This document shows, piece after piece, positions 8,333 to 26,340 of a stretch of DNA of 35,171 nucleotides; positions within the stretch are counted from its first letter, which is position 1, and every line of letters starts with the position of its first letter. This stretch comes from Candidatus Gorgyraea atricola (GTDB lineage Bacteria > Omnitrophota > Gorgyraeia > Gorgyraeales > Gorgyraeaceae). Both the position numbers and the translations under genes were made by a program. Under the pieces are notes generated by a model, which saw nothing but the letters and a program-made list of their open reading frames with translations, made no database searches and was not told the origin of the DNA. The stretch is taken from assembly GCA_030765235.1 (NCBI GenBank), contig JAVCCW010000001.1:1-35171 (forward strand). The letters run 5' to 3'.

Positions 8333-8974
8333 TTAAAATAAAAATACAGCTGCTGCTACTACAGTCGACCAGTTGCCTGCAGGATCTACTATTGTGGACT
8401 GAGTTATATTGCCTGTCTTAACTATCTTATCGCTGATCTTATACTCTTTTTTTACCTCGTCCCAGTCTTTGGAATCATCAAAGTCTGAAAGCCCGAGCGT
8501 TGATGAAAGCATCCTGGCCGCTAGCTCCTCCGCATAATCACCTGCAGTCTCATCTGTCTGGCCATACGCGTGATGTTCACTTAAATATCCATATGCGCTA
8601 TCGCCTGCTGGGATCGCGCTTCCTACAGACGCGGCTATGAGCCTCCTGGATTCATTAGAACTGCAGCGCGCCAGCACGCAATACGTTATGAGGCCCGGCA
8701 CCAGCTCTTTCATGCCTTCATTTCGTGAAATGATCTTACATCCTGGAGGAAAGATGCTCGAGACCTGCACGATATTACATTTCTCAATGCCTGCGTCTCT
8801 AAGCGCGAGCTCGTACGAGCGAAGTTCTTCTCTGTGAGTGCCTACACCTTTAGTAAAAAATATCTTTGTTGGCACCAGCTTAACCGGACTAATCACTGGC
8901 TGCTGCACTGCCGGCGCTGGCTGCTGTTGAACTGGCTGCTGTTGAGCTGGCTGCTGTTGAGCATTATTGTTCAT
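8333..8974 (-). CDS. pdaD: pyruvoyl-dependent arginine decarboxylase (PvlArgDC)
   Basis: Makes agmatine from arginine, the first step of polyamine synthesis by the agmatine route, or serves in acid resistance. The proenzyme cleaves itself to form a pyruvoyl group. The cleavage motif [11 protein letters not shown] is at residues 70-80, with Ser73 expected to become the pyruvoyl. Other family features are [20 protein letters not shown], the S/G-rich [22 protein letters not shown] and AEELAARML. Unusually, about 27 N-terminal residues are Q- and P-rich repeats ([13 protein letters not shown]), a disordered tail absent from typical members. It starts 3 bp after an acidic exported-protein gene and uses a GAGG inside the end of that gene, so the two are co-transcribed. 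No speB or speE neighbour is visible. Confidence 0.92.
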
Positions 8975-9443: not shown

Positions 9444-9471
9444 ATTATAGCACAAAACTTATTTTTTTCAA
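9444..9471 (-). promoter_or_regulatory. sigma-70 promoter of the exported protein-pdaD operon
   Basis: TTGAAA (9466-9471), a 16-bp spacer and TATAAT (9444-9449), with a TG just upstream of the -10. The -35 overlaps the stop codon of the cupin gene. Confidence 0.75.
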
Positions 9472-9800
9472 TTAAAAACATCAGCAGTCACAAAAATGTA
9501 CTCGAGCTCCACACTGCTGTTATTCTTAACATCGTGATCTGTCCTTGGTGGAATATACAAAACTACATCTTTTTCGAGCTTGAAAATACTATCCTTGCCT
9601 ACTTTTGCCTCGCCATTTCCCTTTAAAACAATTATCACCTCTTCGCGTTCGCCTGTTGTATGCGCGCCAACGCTCTGGCCCGGCTGCAATATCACATGAC
9701 CAGCCTTAATCCCAGCCGTACCTGAATCTTTACTAAATAGTCTCTGGTATTTTTCCATCGATTCTAATTTTATTAATCGTGCTTGGGTATTTTTAGCCAT
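9468..9800 (-). CDS. cupin-domain protein
   Basis: A single-domain cupin of 110 aa. Motif 1 reads GQSVGAHTTGEREEVIIVLKG, with one histidine of the usual HxH replaced by Thr but the Glu kept. Motif 2 is PPRTDHDVKN. Small cupins bind a metal or a sugar-like ligand; the substrate cannot be told. I chose the ATG at 9800, with GAGGTG upstream; it overlaps the end of the usher-like gene by 28 bp, so it is translated as the last gene of the fibre operon. Its link to fibre assembly is unclear and could be only positional. Confidence 0.8.
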   Translation of the reverse strand: MAKNTQARLIKLESMEKYQRLFSKDSGTAGIKAGHVILQPGQSVGAHTTGEREEVIIVLKGNGEAKVGKDSIFKLEKDVVLYIPPRTDHDVKNNSSVELEYIFVTADVFN

Positions 9801-12633
9801 CTTTGCCACCACCTCTCTCTTGGTTTTTGCTTTTTCTCTGATTTCTCTGGATGAATAACTTCTACCTTTGGCGCAGTATATGTCTTAATAATCTTTTTCT
9901 CTTTCTCAATAGAACCAAAATCTATATCTAATATCTCCTGGCCAGGTTTTAACTCAACCGCGTATGCAGCTACAGTTGTAAGTCTATGTCTATACGGCAA
10001 CCAGACTTCATCTATGCTAACATGATATTTGCCAGGCAAGATCCCGCTAAAACCATATTTACCGTCAATGTCTGAAAATGTATCTCTGTATATCTCCCCA
10101 TCCTTTATAAGCAACACCCTTACTAGAGACAGTCCCTTTTCTTCTTCGTCCATCGTAACGTTTTTATTCTTATCTTCGAAGATCCTGCCCCTGACTTTAG
10201 AAACCCTGACAAGGGGTATGGTTATGCCGCTCAGTCTTCCCCTGGGCACCTTTAATGCGTAAGGCAATGAGATCTTTGGCGTCAAGCCTACGGGGATAGA
10301 AGAGATGTCTATATCTAGTTCATATTCGCCCGGCACTATAGATGGGAATCTAAATCTACCTTTTTTATTAGTAGGCGCTCGACTCTCATCGAGAATAAAC
10401 ATTATTCCAGCAATCCCCTTTTCCCCTTTATCAGCTGTACCGTTATTATTTTCATCAATAAATACATTCCCATCTACTGAGCCTCTTATTTTTATAAATG
10501 GCAGGAGTATATCAAAGCTCTTCCTTGCGCTGAGCCAGAACTCCCATTCGTTAGTAACATCTGTGCGATTATTCCTCATCTCCCCTTCCACAGAAAGTGA
10601 AAAATCAGTCGTGGGATCATAAGTGATGTCAAATGACAGGATGTCACTCGCCTCTTCCCCTTTTGTGCCCTCTTGAGAAAAACTAACAGAGGAATAAAGT
10701 TTATGCGAAGGGTGATATATCAAACCAAGCTCTTTCCTTAATACCGCCTCCTCATCTCCCGCGATATCTTCTTCCAGATTATAACTATACGCAACCCATC
10801 CGCTGATCTTCTGCCATCGCTTATACGCCCGGCCAGTATATTCCAGCACTTTGGTGTCGACCAATTTTATATCATCCTTTGTCTTGCTGTATTTAGAATC
10901 AAAAGAAACCGATAGCGTGCCAAATGATTCATTTGCCCTGAACGCGACTGCTTCTTCTTTAGAGTCAGAAAGAAGCACCTGCTGCGTGCTCTGGCCCTTA
11001 TTTATTTCATAAGAAAGAGAAAAAAATGGAAAATTCTTTTTAGAAAAAGAGGTCCCGAGCTCGATCCTGTCTGTATCATCAGTGGCCCTGGCAGGATCGC
11101 CTTCCAGATTATTGGTGCTTTGATTTTTATGGACCCACACCCATAATGGTTTAAAAAAACGATAGCTTGCGTATGTCCTGTAACCATCTGTATCTTTTCT
11201 TCGGCCAGGATAATCAGAACCTGCGCGGATATATTCAGCGCTTAGATAAACGCGTTCTCTTTTTAATATAGAGTTTACCCACCAGGCTGCATCTTTTTCT
11301 TCGCCGCTTCCGTTATCAAAGCGGCCGCCAGCATATTCACCCTGTATGAGAAAATTTTGCGCCTTGTGGATCGCGAAAACACTCGCCATCTCTTTTTGCT
11401 CGGCAGAACGTGAAGCAGCCGGGTCAAGTTTATCCTCATCTGACTGGAAATAGTTAATCCCTACCTCAGTAGTCCCGTCGATCTTACCTGCGACCCTACC
11501 GCCTAAAAAATCCTCTCTAAAACTAGTATCCTCTTTTTCCATGTCGAAAAATGTAAAGTTCATAGGGCCTTTGTCAAAGCGAACCCTCGCGCCTTCCTCT
11601 GAAAGCGAGCTTATAGTAAGCTCACTCAGGCTAGCCGAGACATCTCCCAGTCCTATATCCCAATTCTCACCCCCAAATTCTAACGCGATCTCCTCCTGGC
11701 TAAATCCCCTATAATTCTTTTTATCTTTATGATAAGGCCCTCTGTATGTAAAATCCATCCAGTATTTATCATCGAGCTCGCCACCTATAGTAAAATCCAC
11801 ATTTACTCCACGAGACTCGTCTGTTCCTAATCCAGACAGGTAAACTGTTAACTGCGCGGGTAAAGTCTTATACATGCCCTGCTCTTTGGCGCCCCTTCTC
11901 TCTAAGATAGAAGTATAGACAACCCTTTTATCAAAAACACCTTGCTCAAGAAGCATGGACTCCACTTTTAATGTCAAAACGTGTTTTGTTCCCGTAGATA
12001 CATCCAAAGGAATATGTATAGTAGCGATCACCTCAGCCTGCTCTCCCACTCCCAACTCTACTGTATCCATAGAAAGGGCTACCTTCTCCTTATGGGCTGA
12101 TGAGGCAGTGATCTCGAATTTATCTCTTCCATTCCCTAGATTTAAAATAGTAAACGAATAACTAAGGCCCTGACCAGGCCTGCCTTTAGCGTCTTTAGGT
12201 GGACCAATAAGTTTTATGCGGGCATGGGGCAGTATCTTGACGTTCACTCTAGCACTATCGCTTATTTGCGGATTAAGCTGAGAGGCTGCGGAAAGGACTA
12301 TTTCATAAGGGGCATCCGCTAAAGCAGTAACAGGAACAGATACAGTCAGAGGCAGCGCCTTGGTTTGTTTTGGCAAAAGCGAGATAGATTTTAGCGAACT
12401 TATGATATGCCATCCCTCAGGCACGCTAGACTCAAGATCATAAGTGTCTTCTCCTGTCCCAGAATTAGTAATGGTAAAAACAGAGGTTAAAAGACTTTTA
12501 GGAGAGATGATCCTCTCTGAGGCTGAGCTAAGTCCTACTTCTACACTTAGCCCCTCTTCAGCAAAAACAGTCCCGGCGGGAAAAATCAGCGCGAAGACAA
12601 AAATTAAAGAAAAAAAAAGATCTCAAAGCTCAT
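9773..12633 (-). CDS. large outer-membrane beta-barrel (usher-like) protein with Ig-like and SdrD-like domains; frame broken at T9 tract
   Basis: About 950 residues. Order: signal peptide (SLIFVFALIFPAGTVFA, then EEG); NEW3/Ig-like repeats built on phrases such as ITNSGTGEDTYDL and ILNLGNGRDKFEI; a long region of alternating aromatic beta-strands (from about AQLTVYLSGLG to WEFWLSARKSF), typical of an outer-membrane barrel; and two SdrD/carboxypeptidase-like domains with NVFIDENNNGTADKGEKGI and RIFEDKNKNVTMDEEEKG. The tail is basic. The neighbours (pilin-like genes, chaperone-like gene) suggest an usher, but I cannot assign it to FimD by motif. The ATG at 12633 leads after eight codons to TAA. 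The signal-peptide frame continues only if the T9 run (12610-12618) gains one T or a -1 slip occurs. Without it the first usable start is a GTG at 12424, which removes the signal peptide. Confidence 0.65.
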
Positions 12634-12637
12634 TCCT

Positions 12638-13111
12638 CTATTGGGTAGTCAATGTATATACGAGTGTAATATCATAATTGCCAGGGATATCCCGCGCCCA
12701 TGAAAGAGCTATTTTGTAATCTGTAAATATATCCAGTTTCTTAGCGCTCCTGGAACCCCTTGCCACCTCTACATCATAATTAGTAATACTTGTATACCTG
12801 ATCTGTGTAGCATGAGAGCCTTTTGCCTTCCAGGAAAAATCATCTATGGGCTTAATATAACCGTTGATACTACCCATATCACTGTCATTCGTCTTTACCG
12901 TGAGCTTCCAGTCGTTAGCCGTGTCCCTTAGCCTTATGAGACTGCCGGAGATCTTTTCCTTGCATCCGTTTTCATAATCATCAGCATTTATAATACCCAT
13001 ATTCAGCAACTTCGGCCTGATCTTTAAAAAAGTACTGGCCGCGTAAACTAATTGCGCTGAAATAACTAAGCATATGGAAACTAAAATAAAAAGTGTCGCT
13101 CTATTCTTCAT
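12638..13111 (-). CDS. pilin-like exported protein, minor or tip subunit candidate
   Basis: A 157-aa exported protein with signal peptide (FILVSICLVISAQLVYA, then AS). It shares the end of the neighbouring pilin-like proteins (WARDIPGNYDITLVYTLTTQ) and the middle NDWKLTV block, but the start of the mature region differs (KIRPKLLNMGIINADDY). This fits a divergent subunit, perhaps tip or anchor. The ATG overlaps the stop of the chaperone-like gene by 4 bp (ATGA), and the usher-like gene starts 4 bp after its stop, so the three are tightly coupled. It has one cysteine in the mature part, so no internal disulfide. Confidence 0.7.
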   Translation of the reverse strand: MKNRATLFILVSICLVISAQLVYAASTFLKIRPKLLNMGIINADDYENGCKEKISGSLIRLRDTANDWKLTVKTNDSDMGSINGYIKPIDDFSWKAKGSHATQIRYTSITNYDVEVARGSRSAKKLDIFTDYKIALSWARDIPGNYDITLVYTLTTQ

Positions 13112-13920
13112 TTCACCTCAAATACTGCTTCACCTGCCACAAGATATTCTTCGCCATAATCCAGGACCGCCAGCGCGGTATATTGTCCAGGCGCCAATTC
13201 TTCCTTGAGCAATGTCGTTCTTGTCCTGGCTGCCTTGGGATAAGAATTAAATTCCTGCACTTCCATGCTAGTAACCGTTTCGCCTGTAAGATCCTTGATA
13301 TCTATCGTACCCTTGCACTTGAGCAGCGTCTCTCCTTCATTTTCAAATACCAGATCTATCTTGAGAAGTTCATCATCCTCGCTCCAGCTCACATTGACTT
13401 CTTTGATCTTGCCGTCACTTTTTTCTGCACCCGGGGCATTTTCAAACACCCTTACCCCGACTCTTTGAAAAGACAGTATGCTAAATTGATGCTCTCCTTT
13501 TTTAGCGCTTTTTATTGTGGGTTTGGTTGTCTGTTCCACAAATACCATCCCCCAATAAGTACCTCTTTTTTCTGGAGGAACGCTCATCTTAAACCTTATT
13601 GCCCTGCTTTCATCAGGCCCTAACTCTAATTCTTCAGGCGTAACCTCTAACCACGTCGCGCAGCTGCGCTCAACCTCTCCTGGATCAAGAAACACCTCTT
13701 TGCCATCCACCTGGATCCAGAAATCCCCTGTATAGACCTTGAGTGCTATTGTCTCGTCTCCTCTATTCCTGACATAAAAGGTGTAAGTGGCCTCTTCTCC
13801 ACTAGCCACATCTGTATGAAACTCCATGGGAGTAGCGACAAACGCGGCAAAGGCCATACCCGTCACTAACAGAAAACTCGCTGTAAACATAGCCGTAATC
13901 ACAAATATCTTTTTACTCAT
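13108..13920 (-). CDS. periplasmic chaperone-like protein with two Ig-type domains
   Basis: A 270-aa exported protein. After the signal peptide (FLLVTGMAFA, then AFVATP) comes an N-terminal domain with TYTFYVRNRGDETIALKVYTG, LELGPDESRAIRFKMSVPP and TYWGMVFVEQ. This is the strand pattern of PapD-like fimbrial chaperones and also of DUF916 of WxL-binding proteins. The C-terminal half (NVSWSEDDELLKIDLVFENEG and GQYTALAVLDYG) is a second Ig-like domain. The canonical PapD Arg/Lys pair cannot be fixed by eye. Its place between pilin-like genes and an usher-like barrel supports a subunit-chaperone role. A good AGGAG lies 5 nt before the ATG. Confidence 0.65.
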   Translation of the reverse strand: MSKKIFVITAMFTASFLLVTGMAFAAFVATPMEFHTDVASGEEATYTFYVRNRGDETIALKVYTGDFWIQVDGKEVFLDPGEVERSCATWLEVTPEELELGPDESRAIRFKMSVPPEKRGTYWGMVFVEQTTKPTIKSAKKGEHQFSILSFQRVGVRVFENAPGAEKSDGKIKEVNVSWSEDDELLKIDLVFENEGETLLKCKGTIDIKDLTGETVTSMEVQEFNSYPKAARTRTTLLKEELAPGQYTALAVLDYGEEYLVAGEAVFEVK

Positions 13921-13938
13921 ACTAGCTCCTTTTTGAAC

Positions 13939-14484
13939 TTAAAATGATTGTGTAGAAAGCGTGTATACAATAACTATGCTATAGCTACCGGGAATATCTT
14001 TTTCCCAGTCCAGTGCGACCCTATATCTACCTCTATAAACATCATCATTTACACCTGCGTCATAACTGGCAATTTCCTGGTCATCCAAAGAAAGTGAGGT
14101 GAATTTTTTAAAGCCTGTTTGATGTCCGGTCTTTGATGTGATCTTAAGTTCAATATCTCCTGTGGCCTTTTTATAACTACCCGCGGCACTCCAATCAGAG
14201 CTCACTTTTACGCCAAGCTTCCAGTTCGTATTGGAATCTACCACCAGCTTAGGAGATTTCTTTTTGCCTTTTGCGTATCCTGCCTCATATGCCGCTTCAC
14301 CTGACGCGTCCTTTAATAGATTCATAGTCTGGTTCGAGTTGTCGATCAGAAGTTTACATATCGAAGGGACCAACATGGTAATCGCGGCTGTATCATTCTC
14401 ATCCGCAAAGACAGATCCTGAAAAAAATAAAACCCCCGATAGCAATATGACTAAAAAACTATTTAAGGCCATAGAGATCTTCAT
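13939..14484 (-). CDS. pilin-like exported protein 2
   Basis: 181 aa with signal peptide (SFLVILLSGVLFFSGSVFA). The mature protein follows the paralog plan: a short acidic start (DENDTAAITMLVPSICKLLI), a helix/turn block with AAYEAGYAKGKK, VDSNTNWKLGVKVSS, a DQEIASYDAGVNDDV block, and the conserved end YRVALDWEKDIPGSYSIVIVYTLSTQSF. It lacks the HPCQY motif of its siblings. The beta-rich pattern with a conserved Gly 14-16 residues from the C-terminus recalls chaperone-usher subunits. It lies 10 bp after the previous pilin-like gene. Confidence 0.7.
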   Translation of the reverse strand: MKISMALNSFLVILLSGVLFFSGSVFADENDTAAITMLVPSICKLLIDNSNQTMNLLKDASGEAAYEAGYAKGKKKSPKLVVDSNTNWKLGVKVSSDWSAAGSYKKATGDIELKITSKTGHQTGFKKFTSLSLDDQEIASYDAGVNDDVYRGRYRVALDWEKDIPGSYSIVIVYTLSTQSF

Positions 14485-14494
14485 ATGCTACTAT

Positions 14495-15028
14495 TCATCC
14501 TCCATTAGCAACTAGCGTGAATGTTACAACCGTCTCATAAGTCCCTGGAAGATCCTTTTCGTAATCCAAGAGAACCTTGTATTGACAAGGGTGATCTTCT
14601 CTAGTCGTACCTGAAGAACTGGCGGCAAACTCTTGATCTTCCGCAGAAAGCGCTTTGTAATCTCCGAATCCATTTTCAACATTTGCAGTTGCCCTGTCTC
14701 TCAAATGAAGATCTGTTATTGCCTTATCATATGGGCCGCTAAAGCCGCTGCTTTTAGCGCTGATCTTCCATGTTTTATTGGCAGAAATTCTCAAGATAGG
14801 CTTATCAGATGCAAACTCCACAAAGCCTTCATCAAATGCAGTGTATGTTTCTGGATTATTGGTAAGTATCTCTGAAACAGCTTGATCGCTAATACCCAGA
14901 TTAAAGGATGGCTCAATGATCAGTGTGACTGTGGAAACCCCATCATCTGCATCTTCTGCTGCCTGCAAGAAAGGTGCGATGATAAGGAAAAATCCTAGAC
15001 ATAAGATCAAAACCTTGTGTACGCTCAC
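14495..15028 (-). CDS. pilin-like exported protein 3
   Basis: 177 aa with GTG start and signal peptide (LILCLGFFLIIAPFLQA, then AEDADDG). Paralog features: VSTVTLIIEPSFNLGIS, FDEGFVEFASDKPILRISANKTWKISAKSSGFSGPY, HLRDRATANVENGFGDYKALSAEDQEFA and HPCQYKVLLDYEKDLPGTYETVVTFTL. It is most like the 15613-15074 protein. The ribosome site before the GTG is weak, so it may depend on coupling from the gene 45 bp upstream. Both are downstream of the c-di-GMP riboswitch. Confidence 0.7.
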   Translation of the reverse strand: MSVHKVLILCLGFFLIIAPFLQAAEDADDGVSTVTLIIEPSFNLGISDQAVSEILTNNPETYTAFDEGFVEFASDKPILRISANKTWKISAKSSGFSGPYDKAITDLHLRDRATANVENGFGDYKALSAEDQEFAASSSGTTREDHPCQYKVLLDYEKDLPGTYETVVTFTLVANGG

Positions 15029-15073
15029 AACGATATTCTAAATGGTTAAGTCACAAAAGGCAAGAAAATATTC

Positions 15074-15613
15074 TTACGCACCCGAGGTGGAGAGTGTATA
15101 GGTCACTGTGGCAGTGTATTCGCCTGGTATGTCATTTTCATAGTCCAGGAGGACCTTGTACTGGCAGGGATGAGACTCGTTCTTAACACCTTTATTATGA
15201 GAGGCTATTTCCTGGTCAGATGCAGAGAGGGCCTTATAATCACTGAACCCATTGCTTGCATGGCCAACGTTATCATTTTTTAGCATAAGATCCGCGGTTG
15301 ACTTGGAATAAGGCCCGTTAAAGCCACTGCTCCTCACGCTAAGCTTCCAGTCTTGGTTTGAACTGATCTGTAGTGTGGGCTTATCAGGTAAGAATTCTAC
15401 GTAGCCAGCGCTAAACGCGCCTTCAGCGCTTGAATCCTTTACAAGCGTCTCTGACACATTTTCATCAGTAATAGTTAAATGGCAGGCAGGCTTTATGATC
15501 AGTGTAACTGTGGACACGGCCTCATCTGAATCTTCGCCTGCTTGGCCATATTTATAAGGTATAAGCACGGCCAGTATAAGACACAAGATTAAGATCAGTC
15601 GCCTTTTTTTCAT
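15074..15613 (-). CDS. pilin-like exported protein 4, first gene after the riboswitch
   Basis: 179 aa. The ATG at 15613 follows the riboswitch terminator; a longer frame reaching 15676 would run through the riboswitch and is rejected. Signal peptide: KKRRLILILCLILAVLIPY, then KYGQA. Mature features: VSTVTLIIKPACHLTIT, FSAGYVEFLPDKPTLQISSNQDWKLSVRSSGF, GHASNGFSDYKALSASDQEIA and HPCQYKVLLDYENDIPGEY. Two cysteines (PACH and HPCQ) could form a disulfide. Expression should depend on c-di-GMP. The downstream genes 15028 to 9468 are co-directional with small gaps and probably share this control. Confidence 0.78.
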   Translation of the reverse strand: MKKRRLILILCLILAVLIPYKYGQAGEDSDEAVSTVTLIIKPACHLTITDENVSETLVKDSSAEGAFSAGYVEFLPDKPTLQISSNQDWKLSVRSSGFNGPYSKSTADLMLKNDNVGHASNGFSDYKALSASDQEIASHNKGVKNESHPCQYKVLLDYENDIPGEYTATVTYTLSTSGA

Positions 15614-15627
15614 TTCAGCACCCAAAT

Positions 15628-15659
15628 AAAAAAACCTATCCCCTTGAAAGAGAATAGGT
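15628..15659 (-). terminator. intrinsic terminator of the c-di-GMP riboswitch
   Basis: The minus strand can form a 10-bp stem (ACCTATTCTC with GGGGATAGGT, one to two G-U pairs), loop TTTCAA, then a run of seven T. Ten bases in it (CTCTTTCAAG, 15643-15652) are fully complementary to CTTGAAAGAG in the aptamer (15732-15741). Confidence 0.85.
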
Positions 15660-15663
15660 CTTA

Positions 15664-15756
15664 ATGGTTTCGGCAACCCAGCCGCCCTTGCCCCTTTTAC
15701 AGGACTGTAGGCCTGTTGGCTTTGCGTCCCACTCTTTCAAGTGGTTTGCTATTATC
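15664..15756 (-). promoter_or_regulatory. class-I cyclic-di-GMP riboswitch (GEMM-I)
   Basis: Reading the minus strand from about 15750: AGCAAACC, a hairpin CCACT-TGAAAG-AGTGG with a GAAA-type loop, GACGCAAAGCC, GGCCTA, a variable arm, and GGGTTGCCGA. This is the conserved order of the GEMM-I aptamer. The expression platform is the terminator at 15659-15628. The aptamer hairpin and terminator arm are mutually exclusive partners, which suggests that ligand binding frees the terminator and turns expression off (inference). It precedes a pilin-like gene. Confidence 0.88.
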
Positions 15757-15775
15757 GTACCTTAATTACATTATA

Positions 15776-15803
15776 AGTATACCATAAAATCATTGCTTTT
15801 CAA
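15776..15803 (-). promoter_or_regulatory. promoter of the riboswitch transcript
   Basis: TTGAAA (15798-15803), 16-bp spacer, TATACT (15776-15781) with TGG just upstream. Transcription would begin near 15769, just before the aptamer. The same -35/-10 set is reused at the 21624 and 31851 genes. Confidence 0.75.
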
Positions 15804-15815
15804 GGGGTTGTATTA

Positions 15816-16364
15816 TTATGAGGCATCTGTGGAAAGCGTGTAGGTCACTGTAGCAGTGTATTCGCCTGGTATGTCATTTTCATAGTCCAGTAGGATCTTA
15901 TATTGGCAAGGGTGGTCTTCATTCTTAACGCCTCCTGAATATGTGGCTATGTCCTGATCCACTGCTGAAAGCGACTTATAGTCATTAAAGCCATTGGTCA
16001 CATGTGCTGAGCCAGCATCCTTAAGCTGCAGATCGCCTATGTCCTTAGTATAGCTGCCATTAACAGTAAAACCACTGCTCCTGGCGCTTAATTTCCAGTT
16101 CTTATTGGCGGAGACCTTTAGACTGGGTTTACCAGCATCGAGCTCTGCGTAGCCATCATTAAAAGCCTGTTCAGCATCCACATCCTGGTCAAGTGTTATT
16201 GAAGAATCAGGCTGGCTAATAACAAGTCGGCATACATGAGGAATGGTGAGGCTTACTACTGAGGTCTGTGTATCAGTATCGTCCTGTGCTGCAAAAACTA
16301 TACTATATCTACCAGCAATAACTAAAACTAAAATTAATATTAATATTGTCTTTATTGATTTCAT
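15816..16364 (-). CDS. pilin-like exported protein 5
   Basis: 182 aa with signal peptide (TILILILVLVIAGRYSIVFA, then AQDD). Mature part: TSVVSLTIPHVCRLVIS (a candidate N-terminal donor strand of alternating hydrophobics), a FNDGYAELDAGKPSLKVS block with NKNWKLSARSSGF, a HVTNGFNDYKSLSAVDQDIA segment, and HPCQYKILLDYENDIPGEY near the end. Two cysteines (HVCR and HPCQ) may pair. AAGGA lies 7 nt before the ATG. It is separated from the upstream paralog by a strong hairpin and lies upstream of the riboswitch, so it is not under that switch. Confidence 0.75.
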   Translation of the reverse strand: MKSIKTILILILVLVIAGRYSIVFAAQDDTDTQTSVVSLTIPHVCRLVISQPDSSITLDQDVDAEQAFNDGYAELDAGKPSLKVSANKNWKLSARSSGFTVNGSYTKDIGDLQLKDAGSAHVTNGFNDYKSLSAVDQDIATYSGGVKNEDHPCQYKILLDYENDIPGEYTATVTYTLSTDAS

Positions 16365-16384
16365 GGTTGAGTCCTTGTGGATGC

Positions 16385-16415
16385 TGCCGGGCAGGCTTTA
16401 AAAGCTTGCCCGGCA
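16385..16415. other. strong intergenic RNA hairpin between two pilin-like genes
   Basis: TGCCGGGCA and TGCCCGGCA pair perfectly, with three further pairs and a 7-nt loop. No T-run follows on the minus strand. It could protect the 3' end of the first pilin mRNA or reduce read-through, so that the first subunit is made in excess. Confidence 0.65.
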
Positions 16416-16436
16416 AGGCAAACTAATCTTTTAAAA

Positions 16437-16970
16437 TTACGACTGTGTAGCCAATGTGTAAGTCACTGTAGCAGTATATTCACCTGGTACATCCTTTGTA
16501 TAGTCCAGAAGAATTCTGTACTGACAGTCATAGTTTTCATTCTTTACACCTATAGCATTAGTAGCAATGGACTGATCTATTAGAGCTAGCCCTGTAAAAC
16601 TGTCAAATCCTCCTGCTACATAACTGCCTGTATGTAGAAGCTGCAGGTCTCCAACTAACTTATCATAGGTACCAACAGTTGCGAAGCCACTGCTCTTAGC
16701 AGACAATACCCAGTTCTTATTTGCAGAAACCTTTAAATTAGGCTTGCCAGCATCAAGATCCGTGTACCCTGTATCAAAATCTGTCTCAGCATCGCTATCC
16801 TGCACAAGCGTCTTTGAGGAAGCTGACTGACTGATGACCAGTTTTGCGGCATGCGGAATAGTAAGGCTGACAGCGGATGTCTCTACATCACTATCTTCAC
16901 CAACTGCGTAAACAGCGCTTGAACCCACTACCAAAAGACCTACCATTAACATTATCATTAATTTCTTCAT
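16437..16970 (-). CDS. pilin-like exported protein 6, promoter-proximal (major subunit candidate)
   Basis: 177 aa. The ATG at 16970 has AGGAGG 6 nt upstream. Signal peptide: LMIMLMVGLLVVGSSAVYA, then VGED. Mature: TSAVSLTIPHAAKLVIS, FDTGYTDLDAGKPNLKVS with NKNWVLSAKSSGF, YDKLVGDLQLLH, a GGFDSFTGLALIDQSIA block, YDCQYRILLDYTKDVPGEY and the terminal TATVTYTLATQS. Only one cysteine. It is first in the series, has the best ribosome site and is followed by a stabilising hairpin, so it is the best candidate for the main fibre subunit. A possible 42-aa upstream ORF overlaps its start (ATGA). Confidence 0.78.
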   Translation of the reverse strand: MKKLMIMLMVGLLVVGSSAVYAVGEDSDVETSAVSLTIPHAAKLVISQSASSKTLVQDSDAETDFDTGYTDLDAGKPNLKVSANKNWVLSAKSSGFATVGTYDKLVGDLQLLHTGSYVAGGFDSFTGLALIDQSIATNAIGVKNENYDCQYRILLDYTKDVPGEYTATVTYTLATQS

Positions 16971-17095
16971 TTCCTGCCTCCTTTTTGTGTTTCCAGGTTT
17001 ATCTCTTTGTAACTCCTTAAAAGGCAAACTATCTTACTGACATCACCTCCCTTGTTCACCCTTGATTGCTTGATTGTCACTTTGTTCAAACTCAT
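16967..17095 (-). CDS. possible leader peptide ORF, 42 aa
   Basis: An ATG at 17095 with AAGGA upstream opens a frame beginning MSLNKVTIKQSRVNKGG and ending LETQKGGRK. Its TGA overlaps the ATG of pilin 6 by ATGA. It is basic, with no signal peptide. It could couple translation of the pilin to that of a leader, or be a chance frame in a 150-nt leader. Confidence 0.3.
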   Translation of the reverse strand: MSLNKVTIKQSRVNKGGDVSKIVCLLRSYKEINLETQKGGRK

Positions 17096-17124
17096 CTCTT
17101 GTTTTCCTTTCTGAACCCACTACA

Positions 17125-17167
17125 ACTATAGCACCCCCACATGAACTTTCCCTGAAGGAAATCTGAA
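17125..17167 (-). promoter_or_regulatory. candidate PhoB-type box and -10 of the pilin operon
   Basis: Three TTCA(G/T) half sites lie exactly 11 bp apart on the minus strand (17167-17163, 17156-17152, 17145-17141), the spacing bound by OmpR/PhoB dimers. TATAGT (17125-17130) follows and no good -35 is present, as in activator-dependent promoters. Confidence 0.55.
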
Positions 17168-17246
17168 GTTTTTATGAATTCTTTTCAGGTCTATTTTCTT
17201 ATTTTTTTGTGGATGGTTCTGATTGGTTTAAGGCGATTTTGGCAAG

Positions 17247-17284
17247 ATAAAGCCTTTGCGCAAATTTTGCGCATCTGGCTTTAT
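17247..17284. terminator. hairpin after the response-regulator gene
   Basis: ATAAAGCC/GGCTTTAT enclose an inner GCGCAAA/TTTGCGC pairing. A T-rich tail exists on the plus side and a weaker one on the minus side. It probably ends the regulator transcript before the pilin promoter. Confidence 0.55.
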
Positions 17285-17317
17285 TTTTAATAGATATTGT
17301 CCTGATTAGTAGATGTT

Positions 17318-18031
17318 TTAGGCCTGGAACTTATAACCTATGGTATGAAGAGTCTCTATACGCTTACCTTCTTTACCTAACTTCTTGCGAAGATTAGCGA
17401 TATGTTTATCAATGGTATGGCTTGTTTCAAAATACTCACGTTCCCAGATAGTGCCTGATAAAAAAACCCTATTTAGAACGCGGCCCTGCTTCTTAATAAA
17501 GAGATAAAGGAGCGCGAATTCCTTGGGGGTCAAATCTATCTGTTTTCCTTTAATATATGCCATATGTGTGGACATATTGATTACGATATTACCTGCTTTA
17601 ACTATCTCTTCCTCTGAGTTTTGCTTGTGGTTATTAGAACCAATAAAACAGCGGTGAAAAACCGCCTTTATCCTGGCAAGAAACAGCTCCCTCTTTAAAG
17701 GCTTGGCAATATAGTCATCCGCGCCTGAGTTCAAGGCCCGTATCTCATCATCTATGTTGGCAACCTTATCCATCATAATAAAGGGAATCCTGCTTGTAGG
17801 CTCGTTCTTCTTTAAGATTCCCAGGACATCCCAGCCGCTCAGATCTACAAGCTCTGTATTCACGATTATCATGTCTGGCTTCTTGCGCCATGCCAGCTCT
17901 ACTGCCACATCAGCTGTCCTGGCAGAGAGAACCTTGGCATGCTGCTGCTGAACAAGGACCTCCTTTATGAATTTAACTGTCTTAGAATCTGAATCAGCTA
18001 CTAAAATCTTTTGGCCGGTATTATTCTTCAT
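17318..18031 (-). CDS. OmpR/PhoB-family regulator with degenerate receiver
   Basis: A 237-aa two-domain DNA-binding regulator. The receiver (about 8-125) keeps the fold and the Lys (K110 in YIAKPL), but key sites are changed. The phospho-acceptor Asp is Asn58 (PDMIIVNTELVD), the second acidic-pocket residue is Ser14 (VADSD), and the usual Ser/Thr is Asp88 (FIMMDK). The C-terminal winged helix is intact: IDLTPKEFALLYLFIKKQG, VFLSGTIWE, and HTIDKHIANLRKKLG, ending ETLHTIGYKF. It therefore probably works without phosphorylation (a pseudo-receiver). No kinase gene is adjacent. It lies just upstream of the pilin operon and is the natural candidate to bind the 11-bp repeats there. Confidence 0.9.
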   Translation of the reverse strand: MKNNTGQKILVADSDSKTVKFIKEVLVQQQHAKVLSARTADVAVELAWRKKPDMIIVNTELVDLSGWDVLGILKKNEPTSRIPFIMMDKVANIDDEIRALNSGADDYIAKPLKRELFLARIKAVFHRCFIGSNNHKQNSEEEIVKAGNIVINMSTHMAYIKGKQIDLTPKEFALLYLFIKKQGRVLNRVFLSGTIWEREYFETSHTIDKHIANLRKKLGKEGKRIETLHTIGYKFQA

Positions 18032-18259: not shown

Positions 18260-19342
18260 CTACCTGTCCAACCGCTCTAATTTCTTAATCTTCCTATTAG
18301 CCTCTGGCCTAAATATATGAGCATAACCTTCTGTAGTCCTTAACTCAGTATGCCTCATCTGCTCCATTATTTCTTTTGTATTCAATCCTGCGTTAAATAA
18401 GAGGCTGCAATGTGTATGCCTAAGTTCATGTATGGTGCTTATACCAGTGATATTTGCCTTCTTTAGTATCTCTTTTAGTCTCCTTATGATTTTTCTTGTC
18501 CTAATGCCAAAAGGTATTCCATCTTCTGTAGTAAAGACATATTCACTCCTACTTTTCTTTTTAAGTCCATCTAAGACCTTTATAAGCCCATCATGCATAC
18601 TGATATAGTCGGGTTTTTTCTTGCATTTTGGCTGCATAACCCATAAGACCTTGTTCTCAAAGTCAATATCCTGCCACTTTAGCTTAATAAGCTCAGTAAA
18701 TCTAAGCCCTGTATGAATGAATGTATAATAAATAGGGAAGTAGAAGAGATACATTTTCTTTGTGGCTGCCATAAAGGCCTGATACTCGAGAGGAGAGAGG
18801 GCGCTTTTCTGCTTTGCATCATTTACCTCAACCTTTTTACAGCCCTTAGCCGGATTATCCTTTACTAAATTATGCCTTATTGCAAAATTAAACTGCGTAC
18901 AGAGATTTTTTAAATGGTTATTGCAGGTGTTAGCCCTGTTTCCTTTAGATTCTCTTAGATATGTAATGTATTTATCTATTACTGCAGTTGTAATTTCAGA
19001 CAGGAGATTCAGGCCAACAAGGTCTAAGAACCTCATAAACTCATTTATACAGCTTCTATGGGATTTAAAAGTCTCGTAAGGATAGCGCGCCTTATAGTGT
19101 TTTAGAAACTCCTCTGCGAAATGTAAATACGGCATATCGCTAACAGCTTTTTCACCTGTACGTAGTGCCTGATGTTCTGTAAGTCGGGTTAAAAGCTTTC
19201 TCCTTGCCAATTCCTTATCGTCAGTCTTAGTGCTCTCCTGGCGGCGCTTACCCTTAGCGTCATAATACCACATCCACCATACAGAGCTATCTTTCCGCCT
19301 ATATAGATCACCAAACTTTTTCGCTGTCATTGCCTTTACCAT
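18260..19342 (-). CDS. int: tyrosine recombinase / integrase
   Basis: A 360-aa site-specific recombinase. The N-terminal segment (WMWYYDAKGKRRQESTKT) is the arm-DNA-binding type of phage and island integrases. A SAM-like core-binding domain covers about 70-165. The catalytic set is complete: Arg214 (HTGLRFTEL), a Lys near 241-243, His305 and Arg308 (HELRHTH), His331 (MRHTELRTTEGY) and the nucleophile Tyr340. The gene ends 75 bp from the left attachment site. Its start overlaps the end of the xis-like gene by 35 bp, so the two are co-translated. The length matches P4-like/ICE integrases. Confidence 0.96.
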   Translation of the reverse strand: MVKAMTAKKFGDLYRRKDSSVWWMWYYDAKGKRRQESTKTDDKELARRKLLTRLTEHQALRTGEKAVSDMPYLHFAEEFLKHYKARYPYETFKSHRSCINEFMRFLDLVGLNLLSEITTAVIDKYITYLRESKGNRANTCNNHLKNLCTQFNFAIRHNLVKDNPAKGCKKVEVNDAKQKSALSPLEYQAFMAATKKMYLFYFPIYYTFIHTGLRFTELIKLKWQDIDFENKVLWVMQPKCKKKPDYISMHDGLIKVLDGLKKKSRSEYVFTTEDGIPFGIRTRKIIRRLKEILKKANITGISTIHELRHTHCSLLFNAGLNTKEIMEQMRHTELRTTEGYAHIFRPEANRKIKKLERLDR

Positions 19343-21947: not shown

Positions 21948-22763
21948 TTATTTTTTTGTATTTCTTAATTTTAAAAGCTCATAAATCATGTTTTTAGTAT
22001 TTATTTCGCTCTTTGTTTTACCTCTTGGAAAAAGCAGAGAAACATCAGTTGCTACTTTCTTACAAACACTTTCAAGTGATGGAAAAAGTTGTATGGGTGT
22101 AATGTTCATTAACCCTAGTTCTCTCATCACTTGAGGTCGCTCTGTGCAAGAGATTCTGTATTTATATAGAAATTTTTGACTAAATTTTTTCTCATTTACT
22201 TCGATATGGCTTTCTATATTTTCTAAATTTGTATACAAAAACACGCCCTGCTGGAGGAGTTGCTTGGGGTTTCCGATAGATGAAGGCTGAAGTGCAGAGA
22301 CATGAGTATTTTTGTCTCGATAATCATATGATTGCTTAAATGTTTTTACCCAATTAGCCAGATCAAAACAATAAATGCAAACATAATCATTTTGAGGTGA
22401 ATAGTGATTTATTTCATCGAAAGCAAAAAAGGCAGCAATAAAAGGTGAGTATGTCCAATCGAGTAGCGGCGTAGGAAAACCATTGTGTCGAAGATATGCA
22501 ACAAATTGTGCAAGTTCAAGATTATTATTTAAATTACGCGCCCTGCCTTCCCATGTTGCTACTGTTTCGTGAGCATAGGGTATAATATGATCGAAATAAA
22601 ATTCGATATCTTCGGGAGTTTTAAACTGTTCTGTTCTATGTAGAGTCGTTTTCAAGTTCCATATACTGTTGGATTGACCACGATAAATATATTTTTTATC
22701 AATTAGAATCTGTTTTTCTACCTGATCTTTGAATTGTTTCCAACTTATATCAATAAAATTCAT
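21948..22763 (-). CDS. FRG-domain protein
   Basis: A 271-aa cytoplasmic protein. The FRG signature is clear: KYIYRGQSNSIWNLKTTLHR near the start and AQFVAYLRHNGFPTPLLDWT then SPFIAAFFAF. FRG proteins are often carried by phages and defence islands; the biochemical role is not established. It sits in the integrative element as cargo with its own promoter (22834-22861), like an accessory immunity or toxin gene (inference). I chose the ATG at 22763 with GGGAG 6 nt upstream; a TTG two codons earlier is possible. Confidence 0.9.
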   Translation of the reverse strand: MNFIDISWKQFKDQVEKQILIDKKYIYRGQSNSIWNLKTTLHRTEQFKTPEDIEFYFDHIIPYAHETVATWEGRARNLNNNLELAQFVAYLRHNGFPTPLLDWTYSPFIAAFFAFDEINHYSPQNDYVCIYCFDLANWVKTFKQSYDYRDKNTHVSALQPSSIGNPKQLLQQGVFLYTNLENIESHIEVNEKKFSQKFLYKYRISCTERPQVMRELGLMNITPIQLFPSLESVCKKVATDVSLLFPRGKTKSEINTKNMIYELLKLRNTKK

Positions 22764-22833
22764 TTTCAACTCCCTTGTTATAACAATTGATAGGCGAACT
22801 CCCAGTTTGTATTTATTGTTTCTTCCATTTATA

Positions 22834-24074: not shown

Positions 24075-24524
24075 TTATAGCTTTCCGGCGGCCATTAGGA
24101 TGAAGACCATTACAAAGAGGGCAACGGTTTCGATTATGCCTAGCACTATGAGGTAGTTACCGAATCCCTTGCCAGTTTCTGCCATTGCATCAGCTGCTGC
24201 TGCGCCTGCCTTGCCCTGCATCCATGCTGACATCCCCATTGCAATACCGCTAAGTATGCCTGCGCCAGACATGAATTGTCCCTTATTCGCAAGCTCTACA
24301 AAGGCATTCATTACGATCATGCCGTAGATGGTCTGGGAGAGCGGCGCGCCTACGAATACCGTGAGAATAAACGGCGCGTTCTTATTCTGCGCAAAGCATT
24401 TCTTCCATGAGCCTACTGCTGCCATGCCTGCTGCGCCTGCGCCAAGCGCAGAACCCATTGCAGCGAACGCAAGTGAACCTGCGACGCCAAGGTCTTTAAA
24501 TTGCAATAATACATTTGCATCCAT
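24075..24524 (-). CDS. ntpK: V-type ATPase subunit K (proteolipid ring)
   Basis: A 149-aa membrane rotor subunit made of two helical hairpins, each like an F-type c subunit. The ion-binding Glu132 is in the last helix (GIIETVALF). Gln64 (PLSQTIYG) and Gln103 (MQGKAG), with Ser63, correspond to Na+-ligand positions in the Enterococcus hirae ring, so Na+ coupling is plausible. The glycine-rich helices (GSALGAGAAGMAAVG) are typical. It is the last gene of the V-ATPase operon, with AGGAGG before the ATG. Confidence 0.95.
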   Translation of the reverse strand: MDANVLLQFKDLGVAGSLAFAAMGSALGAGAAGMAAVGSWKKCFAQNKNAPFILTVFVGAPLSQTIYGMIVMNAFVELANKGQFMSGAGILSGIAMGMSAWMQGKAGAAAADAMAETGKGFGNYLIVLGIIETVALFVMVFILMAAGKL

Positions 24525-24555
24525 CAGCCTACCTCCTTTGGGGTCAAATTCAGAC

Positions 24556-26340
24556 TCACAGCTTACCTCGACTTTCAGCCTCGGTAAGCTGTGTCTTCAT
24601 TTGAAATGGCGTATATTCCACGCCTGACCATTCCATGTTCATGTGGCTTGAAAACTCAAGCATGTTTAATCTCACGCCATGCACTAGAATAGCCATGGCG
24701 CCCAATAAAATATTCAATGTATGCCCGAATAAAAGCACAAACGCTGTTAGAAATCCGGCAAATATGTTTCCATAACCTATGCCTGAGGCCATTTGGTTAA
24801 ACGCGTCTGCCACTGCCACAGTTGCCGCGCCCACCGCAAACAGGCGTATATATGAAACAATATCTGTGAAACTATTAATTACATTGAGAAGAAGGCCTCC
24901 TATGCCAGAGCCGACTGTCTTAAATAAACTCTTACTAGGGTTCGTGCATAAAATAATGAGGCTAGCGCCTATTATTAAAAGCCACTTTGCGCTCTCAGCA
25001 AATGCCTCGCCTAAAATCAATGTCTTTGCTATAAAATATGCTGCCCACAGCATGCATATCCATCCTGCTTCAGAAAACGCCTTTATTGACGGCATTTTTC
25101 GGATAAATTTCCACAGATGCGCAATACTCAGGTGAATAGCGCCTATAAGAAAACAGAGTGCCTGGATAGTTTCCTCTTGCCTTAAAAGCGGGAGGAGCGG
25201 ATGAACTCTCTCTGGCAACCATGCCTGGCCAAAGAATGTACCTGTTAATAATCCCCACGTAATAGCGCAGAGACTTAAAAGATATGTAAGAAAAAATATA
25301 GACCTGTCCTTCACCTTGTTTCTAAATTTCACATGGCAGAATAGATTCAGAACAAAAAATATTGCGCCGTAACCAGCGTCACCTATAAGCATACCGAAAA
25401 ATATTGAAAAGAATACCAAAAACCACAGGCTTATATCTACTTCCCTGTAGCCAGGAATAGTGTTTATCATCTTAAAAAGAGGCCTGATCATCTCTATCCA
25501 TCGAGGATTCCTTATTAGGGTAGGGACATTGTCGCTCTCCAATGGATCCTCGACAATAAGGCCCCAGCTTTCTCTTTCTGCTATTTTTTCAATAGATTTT
25601 ACCTTGTCCCGAGGAGAGTACCCTATTAGATACGATAATTTCTCAAAGCTCCCAAGACCTGCAGATACCTTGTTAAACTCTATTAGCGAAGAAAGTTTTT
25701 TCCCGTATGAAAAAAGTGACTTTTTATATTTTGAAAGAACTGCCAGGCCATTTTCTATCTCGCGCAATTTCTCTTCTTCTCTTTTTAGGCTCGCTAACAT
25801 CTCTTCAAGGCCTTGTTCAGGTAATTGTATGACCTCAAAAGGCAATTTTATCTCTTCTCTTGAGATGGCTGCACAATAAAAGATGTTACCTTTATTAAAA
25901 AGCTCCTTTATTATTATGCCTTCTGGTATATTACGTAACTCTTTCTTTGTGAGCTTACAAAGCCTTACCCATACACCCTTTGCCTCGAGTTTGTAAATAA
26001 GTTCTGGGTCAAAATCTCCCCAGTCTTTCCATTTTTCTATAGCCTTCTTTATGTTCTTTATTCCCTCTGTAAGAACTTCTTCTTTATCTACGAAATTCAA
26101 GATCTCCTGCATTAGTTTATCTGGATGGCTATGTGTTTTTTGGAATCCAGGTGGATCAGGCAATGCATCTATGGCCTTAAAAAGAGAAAGATATTTTTCT
26201 TTGAGAAGGCTTATGTTTTCATTTTCTGGAGGCCTTTGGTGCTCGACATGCACAACGCCTGATCTTGCCAAGGCCTTGAGTGTCGCGTCAATATCCTTTG
26301 ACTGTACTATTATGCTCAGTTTTTTCATTGAAACTATCAT
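24556..26340 (-). CDS. ntpI: V-type ATPase subunit I (a-subunit, ion channel)
   Basis: 594 aa. The N-terminal half is a cytoplasmic coiled-coil stator part (KKLSIIVQSKDIDATLKALA, then a long helical region). The C-terminal half has about seven transmembrane segments. It includes GMLIGDAGYGAIFF and GGLLLNVINSFTDIVSYIRLFAVG, with the essential Arg in SYIRLFAVG. It ends HGVRLNMLEFSSHMNMEWSG, a strong family signature. The ATG overlaps the stop of subunit D by ATGA. Confidence 0.96.
   Translation of the reverse strand: MIVSMKKLSIIVQSKDIDATLKALARSGVVHVEHQRPPENENISLLKEKYLSLFKAIDALPDPPGFQKTHSHPDKLMQEILNFVDKEEVLTEGIKNIKKAIEKWKDWGDFDPELIYKLEAKGVWVRLCKLTKKELRNIPEGIIIKELFNKGNIFYCAAISREEIKLPFEVIQLPEQGLEEMLASLKREEEKLREIENGLAVLSKYKKSLFSYGKKLSSLIEFNKVSAGLGSFEKLSYLIGYSPRDKVKSIEKIAERESWGLIVEDPLESDNVPTLIRNPRWIEMIRPLFKMINTIPGYREVDISLWFLVFFSIFFGMLIGDAGYGAIFFVLNLFCHVKFRNKVKDRSIFFLTYLLSLCAITWGLLTGTFFGQAWLPERVHPLLPLLRQEETIQALCFLIGAIHLSIAHLWKFIRKMPSIKAFSEAGWICMLWAAYFIAKTLILGEAFAESAKWLLIIGASLIILCTNPSKSLFKTVGSGIGGLLLNVINSFTDIVSYIRLFAVGAATVAVADAFNQMASGIGYGNIFAGFLTAFVLLFGHTLNILLGAMAILVHGVRLNMLEFSSHMNMEWSGVEYTPFQMKTQLTEAESRGKL

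Follow-up and report, generated by a model that had tools for sequence, protein, structure and literature searches.

A candidate chaperone-usher-type fibre locus in Candidatus Gorgyraea atricola and other Omnitrophota

Alternate (alpha) chaperone-usher systems, among them CFA/I (CfaA-CfaB-CfaC-CfaE) and EcpA-EcpE, are encoded by operons made up of subunits, a chaperone and a barrel, and have been described as confined to beta- and gamma-proteobacteria (PMC4654587). The pili listed so far for Omnitrophota are type IV and Tad pili (PMC10066038), and a literature search found no paper joining Omnitrophota with chaperone-usher systems. Here, we describe a locus with the same operon make-up in a 35,171 bp stretch (the window; contig JAVCCW010000001.1, positions 1–35,171, forward strand) of the Omnitrophota genome Candidatus Gorgyraea atricola (GenBank assembly GCA_030765235.1). 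It includes genes for six paralogous subunits (p1–p6), a chaperone with two immunoglobulin (Ig)-like domains and a large barrel protein, along with a cyclic di-GMP (c-di-GMP)-I riboswitch. A first-pass annotation of the window had suggested an undescribed branch of chaperone-usher or an analogous fibre system, and this is favoured by the homology of the chaperone to EcpB, the CfaB/CfaE-type fold, the missing G strand, the N-terminal extensions and the gene order. Our best reading is that the locus is a new, distantly related chaperone-usher-type variant, and we put the probability that it encodes a surface fibre working like a chaperone-usher pilus at roughly 0.8.

Beyond operon make-up, the new loci resemble alternate systems in that the chaperone profile leads to EcpB, and the three-domain subunits found in relatives lead to CfaE-CfaB by sequence and to CfaB/CfaE fusions by fold. 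As in the alternate systems, the subunits end at strand F and donor-type extensions are present on all but the tip candidate. In contrast, the barrel is recognised neither by the usher model nor in a comparison with EcpC, bears C-terminal SdrD_B domains, and has an N-terminus consisting of NEW3/Ig domains (window) or of a pilus-formation N domain and TPR (relatives). Arg89 of EcpB is not kept, and three-domain tip candidates and c-di-GMP riboswitches are found in the new loci. With the classical and archaic pili (type 1, P and Csu) the locus shares the general logic and, in most members of the family, the superfamily-invariant chaperone proline, and Foldseek places FimD and PapC first among barrels. 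However, the new family has no match to PF00577 and none above cut-off to PF00345, the low-confidence barrel model shows no plug-sized insertion, and the SCPU and SEF14 models give only single weak matches among 48 subunits.

A third point of comparison is provided by the WxL/WxLIP (DUF916-DUF3324) clusters. WxLIP has been reported from AlphaFold models to complete the WxL sandwich via an inserted hairpin strand, in an account that leaves chaperones unmentioned (PMC10599100). The likeness lies in this proposed strand insertion, in a chaperone whose family profile aligns end to end with EfmWxLIP1, and in the presence of small and large subunit types within one cluster. Unlike WxLIP, the window chaperone has no membrane helix, and the locus has an outer-membrane barrel and no WxL domain match.

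Chaperone family and gene order

All genes of the locus are read from the minus strand and run p1, p2, riboswitch, p3, p4, p5, chaperone, p6, barrel frame, and they form one transcription unit with the riboswitch. Of the ATGA couplings reported in the first-pass annotation, the only one is the overlap of the chaperone and p6 genes (13108–13111), the other subunit genes being approximately 10–200 bp apart.

The chaperone-like protein (270 aa; 13108–13920, minus strand) has a signal peptide and two Ig-like domains and lacks a C-terminal membrane helix. When it was used alone in a Pfam scan, no chaperone family was matched. Profiles built from sequences outside the window find it at 1e-57, and when the profile of the family (43 relatives) was used to query 177,635 distinct PDB sequences only three credible matches were returned, namely EcpB (6e-6) and two sequences of the enterococcal WxL-interacting protein EfmWxLIP1 (1e-5), the match to EfmWxLIP1 spanning the full length. 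The same three were returned by a second alignment (A8, n=63), with EcpB at 8e-5, and a profile excluding the window protein reaches K-12 EcpB at 5e-7 (Z=5000; E-values of all profiles without window sequences are scaled to 5,000 sequences). The family profile thus places the two-Ig protein, called chaperone-like in the first-pass annotation, in the PapD/EcpB superfamily.

Residue by residue, the chaperones were aligned to EcpB with HMMER. Pro60 of EcpB is the only residue invariant throughout the chaperone superfamily (PMC4654587), and the corresponding proline, aligned to the LTP of EcpB, is kept in 37 of the 43 relatives, including the window protein (P95). An arginine in the G1-like strand is present in all 43 (R153 in the window), and both EcpB and WxLIP have an arginine at the aligned position. 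In classical chaperones, a lysine of the G1 strand serves subunit binding (PMC4133393), and from the alignment the invariant arginine may be its equivalent. Some relatives have chaperones of 366–568 aa with extra C-terminal Ig-domain repeats (L079 6944–8056, L082 6998–8704 and L083 4499–5599).

Relatives of the chaperone were found with one query in 85 of 237 genomes of the phylum. Only one genome of the window's own family, other than that of the window, has the chaperone in our sample, where it is therefore rare and its distribution patchy. A second collection comprises 75 loci, mostly from Omnitrophota and including one from Candidatus Velamenicoccus archaeovorus (L106), with the remainder from Elusimicrobia, Margulisiibacteria, Planctomycetales, Acidobacteriota and Actinomycetota bins. 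With the Actinomycetota-type loci set aside, the chaperone is followed by a barrel relative at 57 of the 62 places with room for one and preceded by a subunit relative at 64 of 65. The subunit-chaperone-barrel order therefore recurs across Omnitrophota, as the first-pass annotation had proposed to check, which marks the locus as a conserved system and not as a chance grouping. Curated models for usher, PapD and WxLIP gave no match above their cut-offs among the genomes of the phylum that were searched.

Subunit ends and the candidate tip subunit

The subunit genes are those of p1 (177 aa; 16437–16970), p2 (182 aa; 15816–16364), p3 (180 aa; 15074–15616), p4 (177 aa, GTG start; 14495–15028), p5 (181 aa; 13939–14484) and p6 (157 aa; 12638–13111). 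For p1 and p3, the internal ATGs at 16970 and 15616 are preferred to the earlier starts, as the longer TTG starts are unlikely. The six paralogs, already recognised in the first-pass annotation as exported proteins with shared ends, can be aligned over their full length, with 17 invariant columns and a mean column identity of 55%; W68, P143, G144 and Y146 (p6 numbering) are invariant. A profile built from the six (A1) matches just these in the 1.74 Mb genome, the matches to its own members being by construction, and no seventh copy was found with it. A profile built from other genomes only finds five of the six at E-values of 6e-7 (p2) to 1e-4 and nothing else above background. As p6 reaches only E 1.2 with this profile, it is linked to the family solely via its paralogs.

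That the paralogs match no pilin family that can be named also held up. A Pfam scan of the single window proteins gave nothing informative for the subunits or the chaperone, matches to Cep192, TBPIP_N and HYDIN having been set aside as generic Ig noise, and no credible match was returned when the PDB was searched with a profile of the six paralogs or of a mixed single-domain set. NF058581, the NCBIfam model for the Pam pilus pilin of candidate phyla radiation (CPR) bacteria, weakly matches 2 of 48 single-domain subunits (alignment A4; best 3.6e-4), and this pilin may be kin of the new subunits. Genome-wide, none of 97 genomes from the phylum matched NF058581, and the model was silent in every control too. 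No paper describing the Pam pilus system was found in our literature search.

Many relatives encode, beside single-domain subunits, a protein of approximately 470 aa composed of three subunit-type domains. A profile of this three-domain protein gave a single credible match in the PDB, the CfaE-CfaB fusion 3f83 of CFA/I fimbriae (2.7e-4). The three-domain protein of Candidatus Velamenicoccus archaeovorus was chosen for AlphaFold modelling instead of a window paralog for its deeper alignment, and the model has a mean predicted local distance difference test (pLDDT) score of 90.6. When it was compared with the PDB using Foldseek, the three top-ranked structures were the CfaB trimer fusion 3f85 (2.9e-14), CfaE-CfaB 3f83 and CfaB-CfaB 3f84, all donor-strand-complemented fusions (2.9e-14 to 9e-11), followed by generic multi-Ig proteins. 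In domains 1 and 2 of the model, strand F leads straight into a further strand contributed by the linker to the next domain; in domain 3 and in the single-domain subunits, nothing follows strand F. Strand order and the fold match suggest the strand partners, and it is as a strand layout in this one predicted relative that donor-strand completion is seen.

In 121 of the 135 subunits, 13–15 residues separate the C-terminus from the glycine that opens strand F, in agreement with the conserved C-terminal strand noted in the first-pass annotation. The subunits end at strand F and the G strand is missing. At the other end, the distance from the signal-peptide cut, predicted with a simple rule of our own, to strand A is bimodal, at approximately 1 or approximately 16 residues. 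Among the 55 loci in which two or more subunits were scored, exactly one subunit lacks an extension in 48; for several of the remaining seven, a miscalled cleavage site seems likely. The extension-less member is either the three-domain protein or a single-domain subunit adjoining the chaperone.

The same pattern is seen in the window. p1 has a signal peptide, an extension of approximately 19 residues that is a donor-strand candidate, a probable Ig-like body and a C-terminal F strand. The extensions of p2 (approximately 19 residues), p3 and p4 (approximately 18 each) and p5 (approximately 15) likewise contain alternating hydrophobic stretches, such as SAVSLTIP, and p6 has approximately 2 residues ahead of strand A. 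The six paralogs are thus probably not equivalent. In chaperone-usher pili, only the tip subunit lacks a donor strand, and by analogy p6 is likely to be the tip subunit.

A short secreted frame lies directly downstream of the barrel gene on the opposite strand in 36 of 41 loci by an automatic rule, and 31 of these frames, encoding 74–115 aa, were accepted (for example L082 11705–12052, L104 9401–9715, L110 11208–11468 and L143 6221–6469, on the minus strand after the barrel). The mature start of these proteins resembles a subunit extension and they contain no Ig domain. A strict motif, written after the sequences had been viewed so that the counts are descriptive, is present in 20 of the 31 small proteins. 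By comparison, it occurs in 2 of 214 control frames, in 1.9% of shuffles, in 21 of the 95 subunits that bear an extension and in 0 of the 54 that lack one. At least seven loci have a riboswitch no more than approximately 340 bp upstream of the small protein. The window locus is without one, and the best, weak matches of the small-protein profile (A9) in the window genome are to the N-termini of p1 (E 0.06) and p2 (E 0.08). Our guess is that the small protein is a donor-strand-only cap or anchor of the fibre.

The barrel and competing explanations

The barrel protein is encoded by a 949-codon open frame (9773–12622, minus strand) that has a signal-peptide-like start, two NEW3/Ig-like domains, approximately 25 strands that follow one another from residue 257 to residue 701 in a low-confidence model, and two SdrD_B domains. 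An usher-type barrel has 24 strands. Profiles without window sequences find it at 2e-53. The large barrel with an SdrD-type end reported in the first-pass annotation is confirmed, and the barrel is a possible usher. When the model was compared with the PDB, the FimD/PapC ushers were matched at 1e-13 and the PapC barrel alone at 1e-6, with LptD the best non-usher at 3e-5; the model thus weakly supports a role as usher, which sequence does not. Among 34 barrels, a Pfam scan found no match to CooC-family models. The N-terminus varies: of 34 relatives, 23 have the pilus-formation N domain (T2SS-T3SS_pil_N) and 19 have TPR. A secretin identity, raised by the former, was rejected as the window barrel has no such match and Foldseek favours ushers.

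Several observations weigh against the chaperone-usher interpretation. The barrel model is weak (pLDDT 61; predicted template modelling score, 0.42), leaves residues 12–271 unmodelled and gives template modelling scores of just 0.2–0.3 in the Foldseek comparison. The usher match may partly stem from the general combination of a barrel and C-terminal Ig domains, and these Ig domains may also account for part of the lead over LptD. In this poor model, the gaps between barrel strands are all approximately 25 residues or less, with no plug-sized insertion. The curated usher model PF00577 matched in 0 of 145 genomes, with E. coli as a positive control, and hhalign gave the barrel profile a probability of 0.3% and no alignment with EcpC. 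PapD_N (PF00345) was not found above cut-off in 117 genomes. Arg89, the non-classical anchor in strand F1 with which EcpB holds the subunit carboxylate (PMC4654587), is not conserved, the aligned position being occupied mostly by a small residue. The subunit fold was predicted for the three-domain protein of a relative and not for a window paralog; the window paralogs tie to that protein only via the single-domain family, and their hhalign match to the three-domain family is weak (14%) and confined to the C-terminus. Moreover, in this assembly no usable start codon is in frame with the barrel gene: the one ATG nearby (12633) is put out of frame by a run of nine Ts (T9; 12610–12618, minus strand). 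Because of the weak model, the absence of a usher-model match, the variable N-terminus and the lack of a visible plug, we call the barrel usher-like, and because the curated usher, alternate-clade usher and Arg89 tests failed we file the locus as a distant variant.

If the chaperone-usher interpretation is correct, the subunits would be exported to the periplasm as Ig-like domains missing the last (G) strand, and the two-Ig chaperone would bind each of them, filling the gap with its own G1 strand while the invariant arginine holds the subunit C-terminus. At the outer-membrane barrel, to which the chaperone would then hand each subunit, the chaperone strand would be displaced by the extension at the N-terminus of the incoming subunit, so that the fibre would grow by donor-strand exchange and leave the cell through the barrel acting as an usher. 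The extension-less subunit (p6, or the three-domain protein in most relatives) would be incorporated first and become the tip. Via the riboswitch, c-di-GMP might adjust part of the operon, in a direction that we can only infer.

We think it improbable, at around the same level as a defect in the window locus considered below, that the locus is instead a Gram-negative counterpart of WxL/WxLIP, in which the two-Ig protein would be no shuttling chaperone but the permanent partner that completes and displays WxL-like subunits, and the barrel would anchor or expose them and extrude no polymer. The full-length alignment of the chaperone profile with EfmWxLIP1 suits such a counterpart, as do the reported strand insertion of WxLIP and weak matches to the WxLIP Pfam family in 14 of the 43 chaperone relatives. 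So do eight Actinomycetota-type loci (L088, L098, L099, L107, L111, L117, L125 and L135), in which the chaperone has a C-terminal membrane helix and no barrel is present. Most of the eight carry a subunit gene, their layout is that of WxL/WxLIP clusters, the Actinomycetota-labelled chaperones form one clade on the tree, and five of the eight match WxLIP_PGBD weakly. As a profile of Actinomycetota chaperones only found no solved relative, the tie between these loci and WxLIP rests on weak Pfam matches and architecture; WxLIP_PGBD was above cut-off in 0 of 117 genomes. Against a WxL counterpart, neither the 48 single-domain nor the 25 three-domain subunits match the WxL domain at E≤0.5, the window chaperone has no membrane helix, and extensions on all but one subunit per locus suit polymerisation and not a fixed complex.

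Still less probable, in our view, is a convergent assembly, in which generic Ig and barrel domains were joined independently of chaperone-usher for another secretion or surface-layer function. Ig-like and SdrD domains are indeed common, the curated usher model found nothing and the E-values to known families are modest, but different parts of the locus (with EcpB, CfaE-CfaB, the CfaB trimer and FimD/PapC as their respective matches) point to one pathway, and the extension pattern mirrors chaperone-usher logic. A different concern, compatible with the chaperone-usher interpretation for the relatives, is that the locus is decaying or off in this genome and that, with the barrel frameshifted at the T9, no fibre is made. 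The sole upstream ATG is out of frame across the T9, and on the chaperone tree no branch is longer than that of the window protein (2.29). However, the 949-codon frame is otherwise intact, as are the six paralogs and the chaperone, homopolymers can slip reversibly, and an error is possible as the assembly is multi-contig. We consider decay unlikely; T10 would restore the frame, and phase variation, slippage or assembly error may each account for the offset.

The links to both WxL/WxLIP and chaperone-usher allow a tentative evolutionary scheme, which we hold to be somewhat less probable than even. An ancestral strand-lacking Ig subunit and a two-Ig donor may have given rise both to membrane-anchored systems with no barrel in single-membrane bacteria (WxL/WxLIP and the Actinomycetota loci) and to chaperone-usher in bacteria with two membranes. 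The Omnitrophota-type branch would have added its own usher-like barrel and, among relatives, a convergently encoded, c-di-GMP-controlled, donor-strand-only small protein that caps or anchors the base of the fibre. If the locus does encode a chaperone-usher-type fibre, donor-strand-exchange fibres would reach beyond the proteobacteria and the few phyla described for the archaic clade, and would be widespread in Omnitrophota, where the usher model finds none, and present in Elusimicrobia, Margulisiibacteria and others. They would also be a concrete candidate for the means by which these very small cells, some of them predators or attached to hosts, keep hold of their partners. The origin of chaperone-usher would become testable as well, through intermediates with and without a barrel that link it to the Gram-positive WxL/WxLIP complexes.

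Riboswitches and surrounding genes

The riboswitch aptamer (15669–15760, minus strand; Rfam RF01051, 73.5 bits, E 8.7e-13), absent from the first-pass annotation, occupies the gap between p2 and p3, before p3. In 23 relative loci (290 kb), 15 c-di-GMP-I-type riboswitches were found, distributed over 13 of the loci. For RF01051 alone, the 8 matches in the 23 loci are approximately elevenfold above expectation from 39 related genomes, which have approximately 2.5 per Mb (150 matches in approximately 60 Mb). A link of the riboswitch to surface attachment is plausible.

An OmpR/PhoB-type response regulator gene (17318–18031, minus strand; Response_reg 6e-16, Trans_reg_C 1e-21) lies upstream of p1 and from its position is a possible regulator of the operon. 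TTCA repeats approximately 11 bp apart (TTCAGATTTCC TTCAGGGAAAG TTCATG) that resemble a PhoB-type box are found upstream of p1 at 17120–17175 on the minus strand, adjoining the regulator gene. The first-pass annotation had extended the locus over 9468–18031; within this span the fibre genes are confirmed, and neither the response regulator gene nor the cupin gene at 9468–9812, which we judged unrelated, is shown to be a member.

A tyrosine recombinase gene of the phage integrase family (1.8e-24) is located beside the fibre locus at 18260–19342. Given this neighbour and the patchy occurrence of the chaperone in the window's family, the locus may sit on an acquired island. Elsewhere in the window are genes for a pyruvoyl-dependent arginine decarboxylase (8333–8974), an FRG-domain protein (21948–22769) and V-type ATPase subunits (24075–26340).

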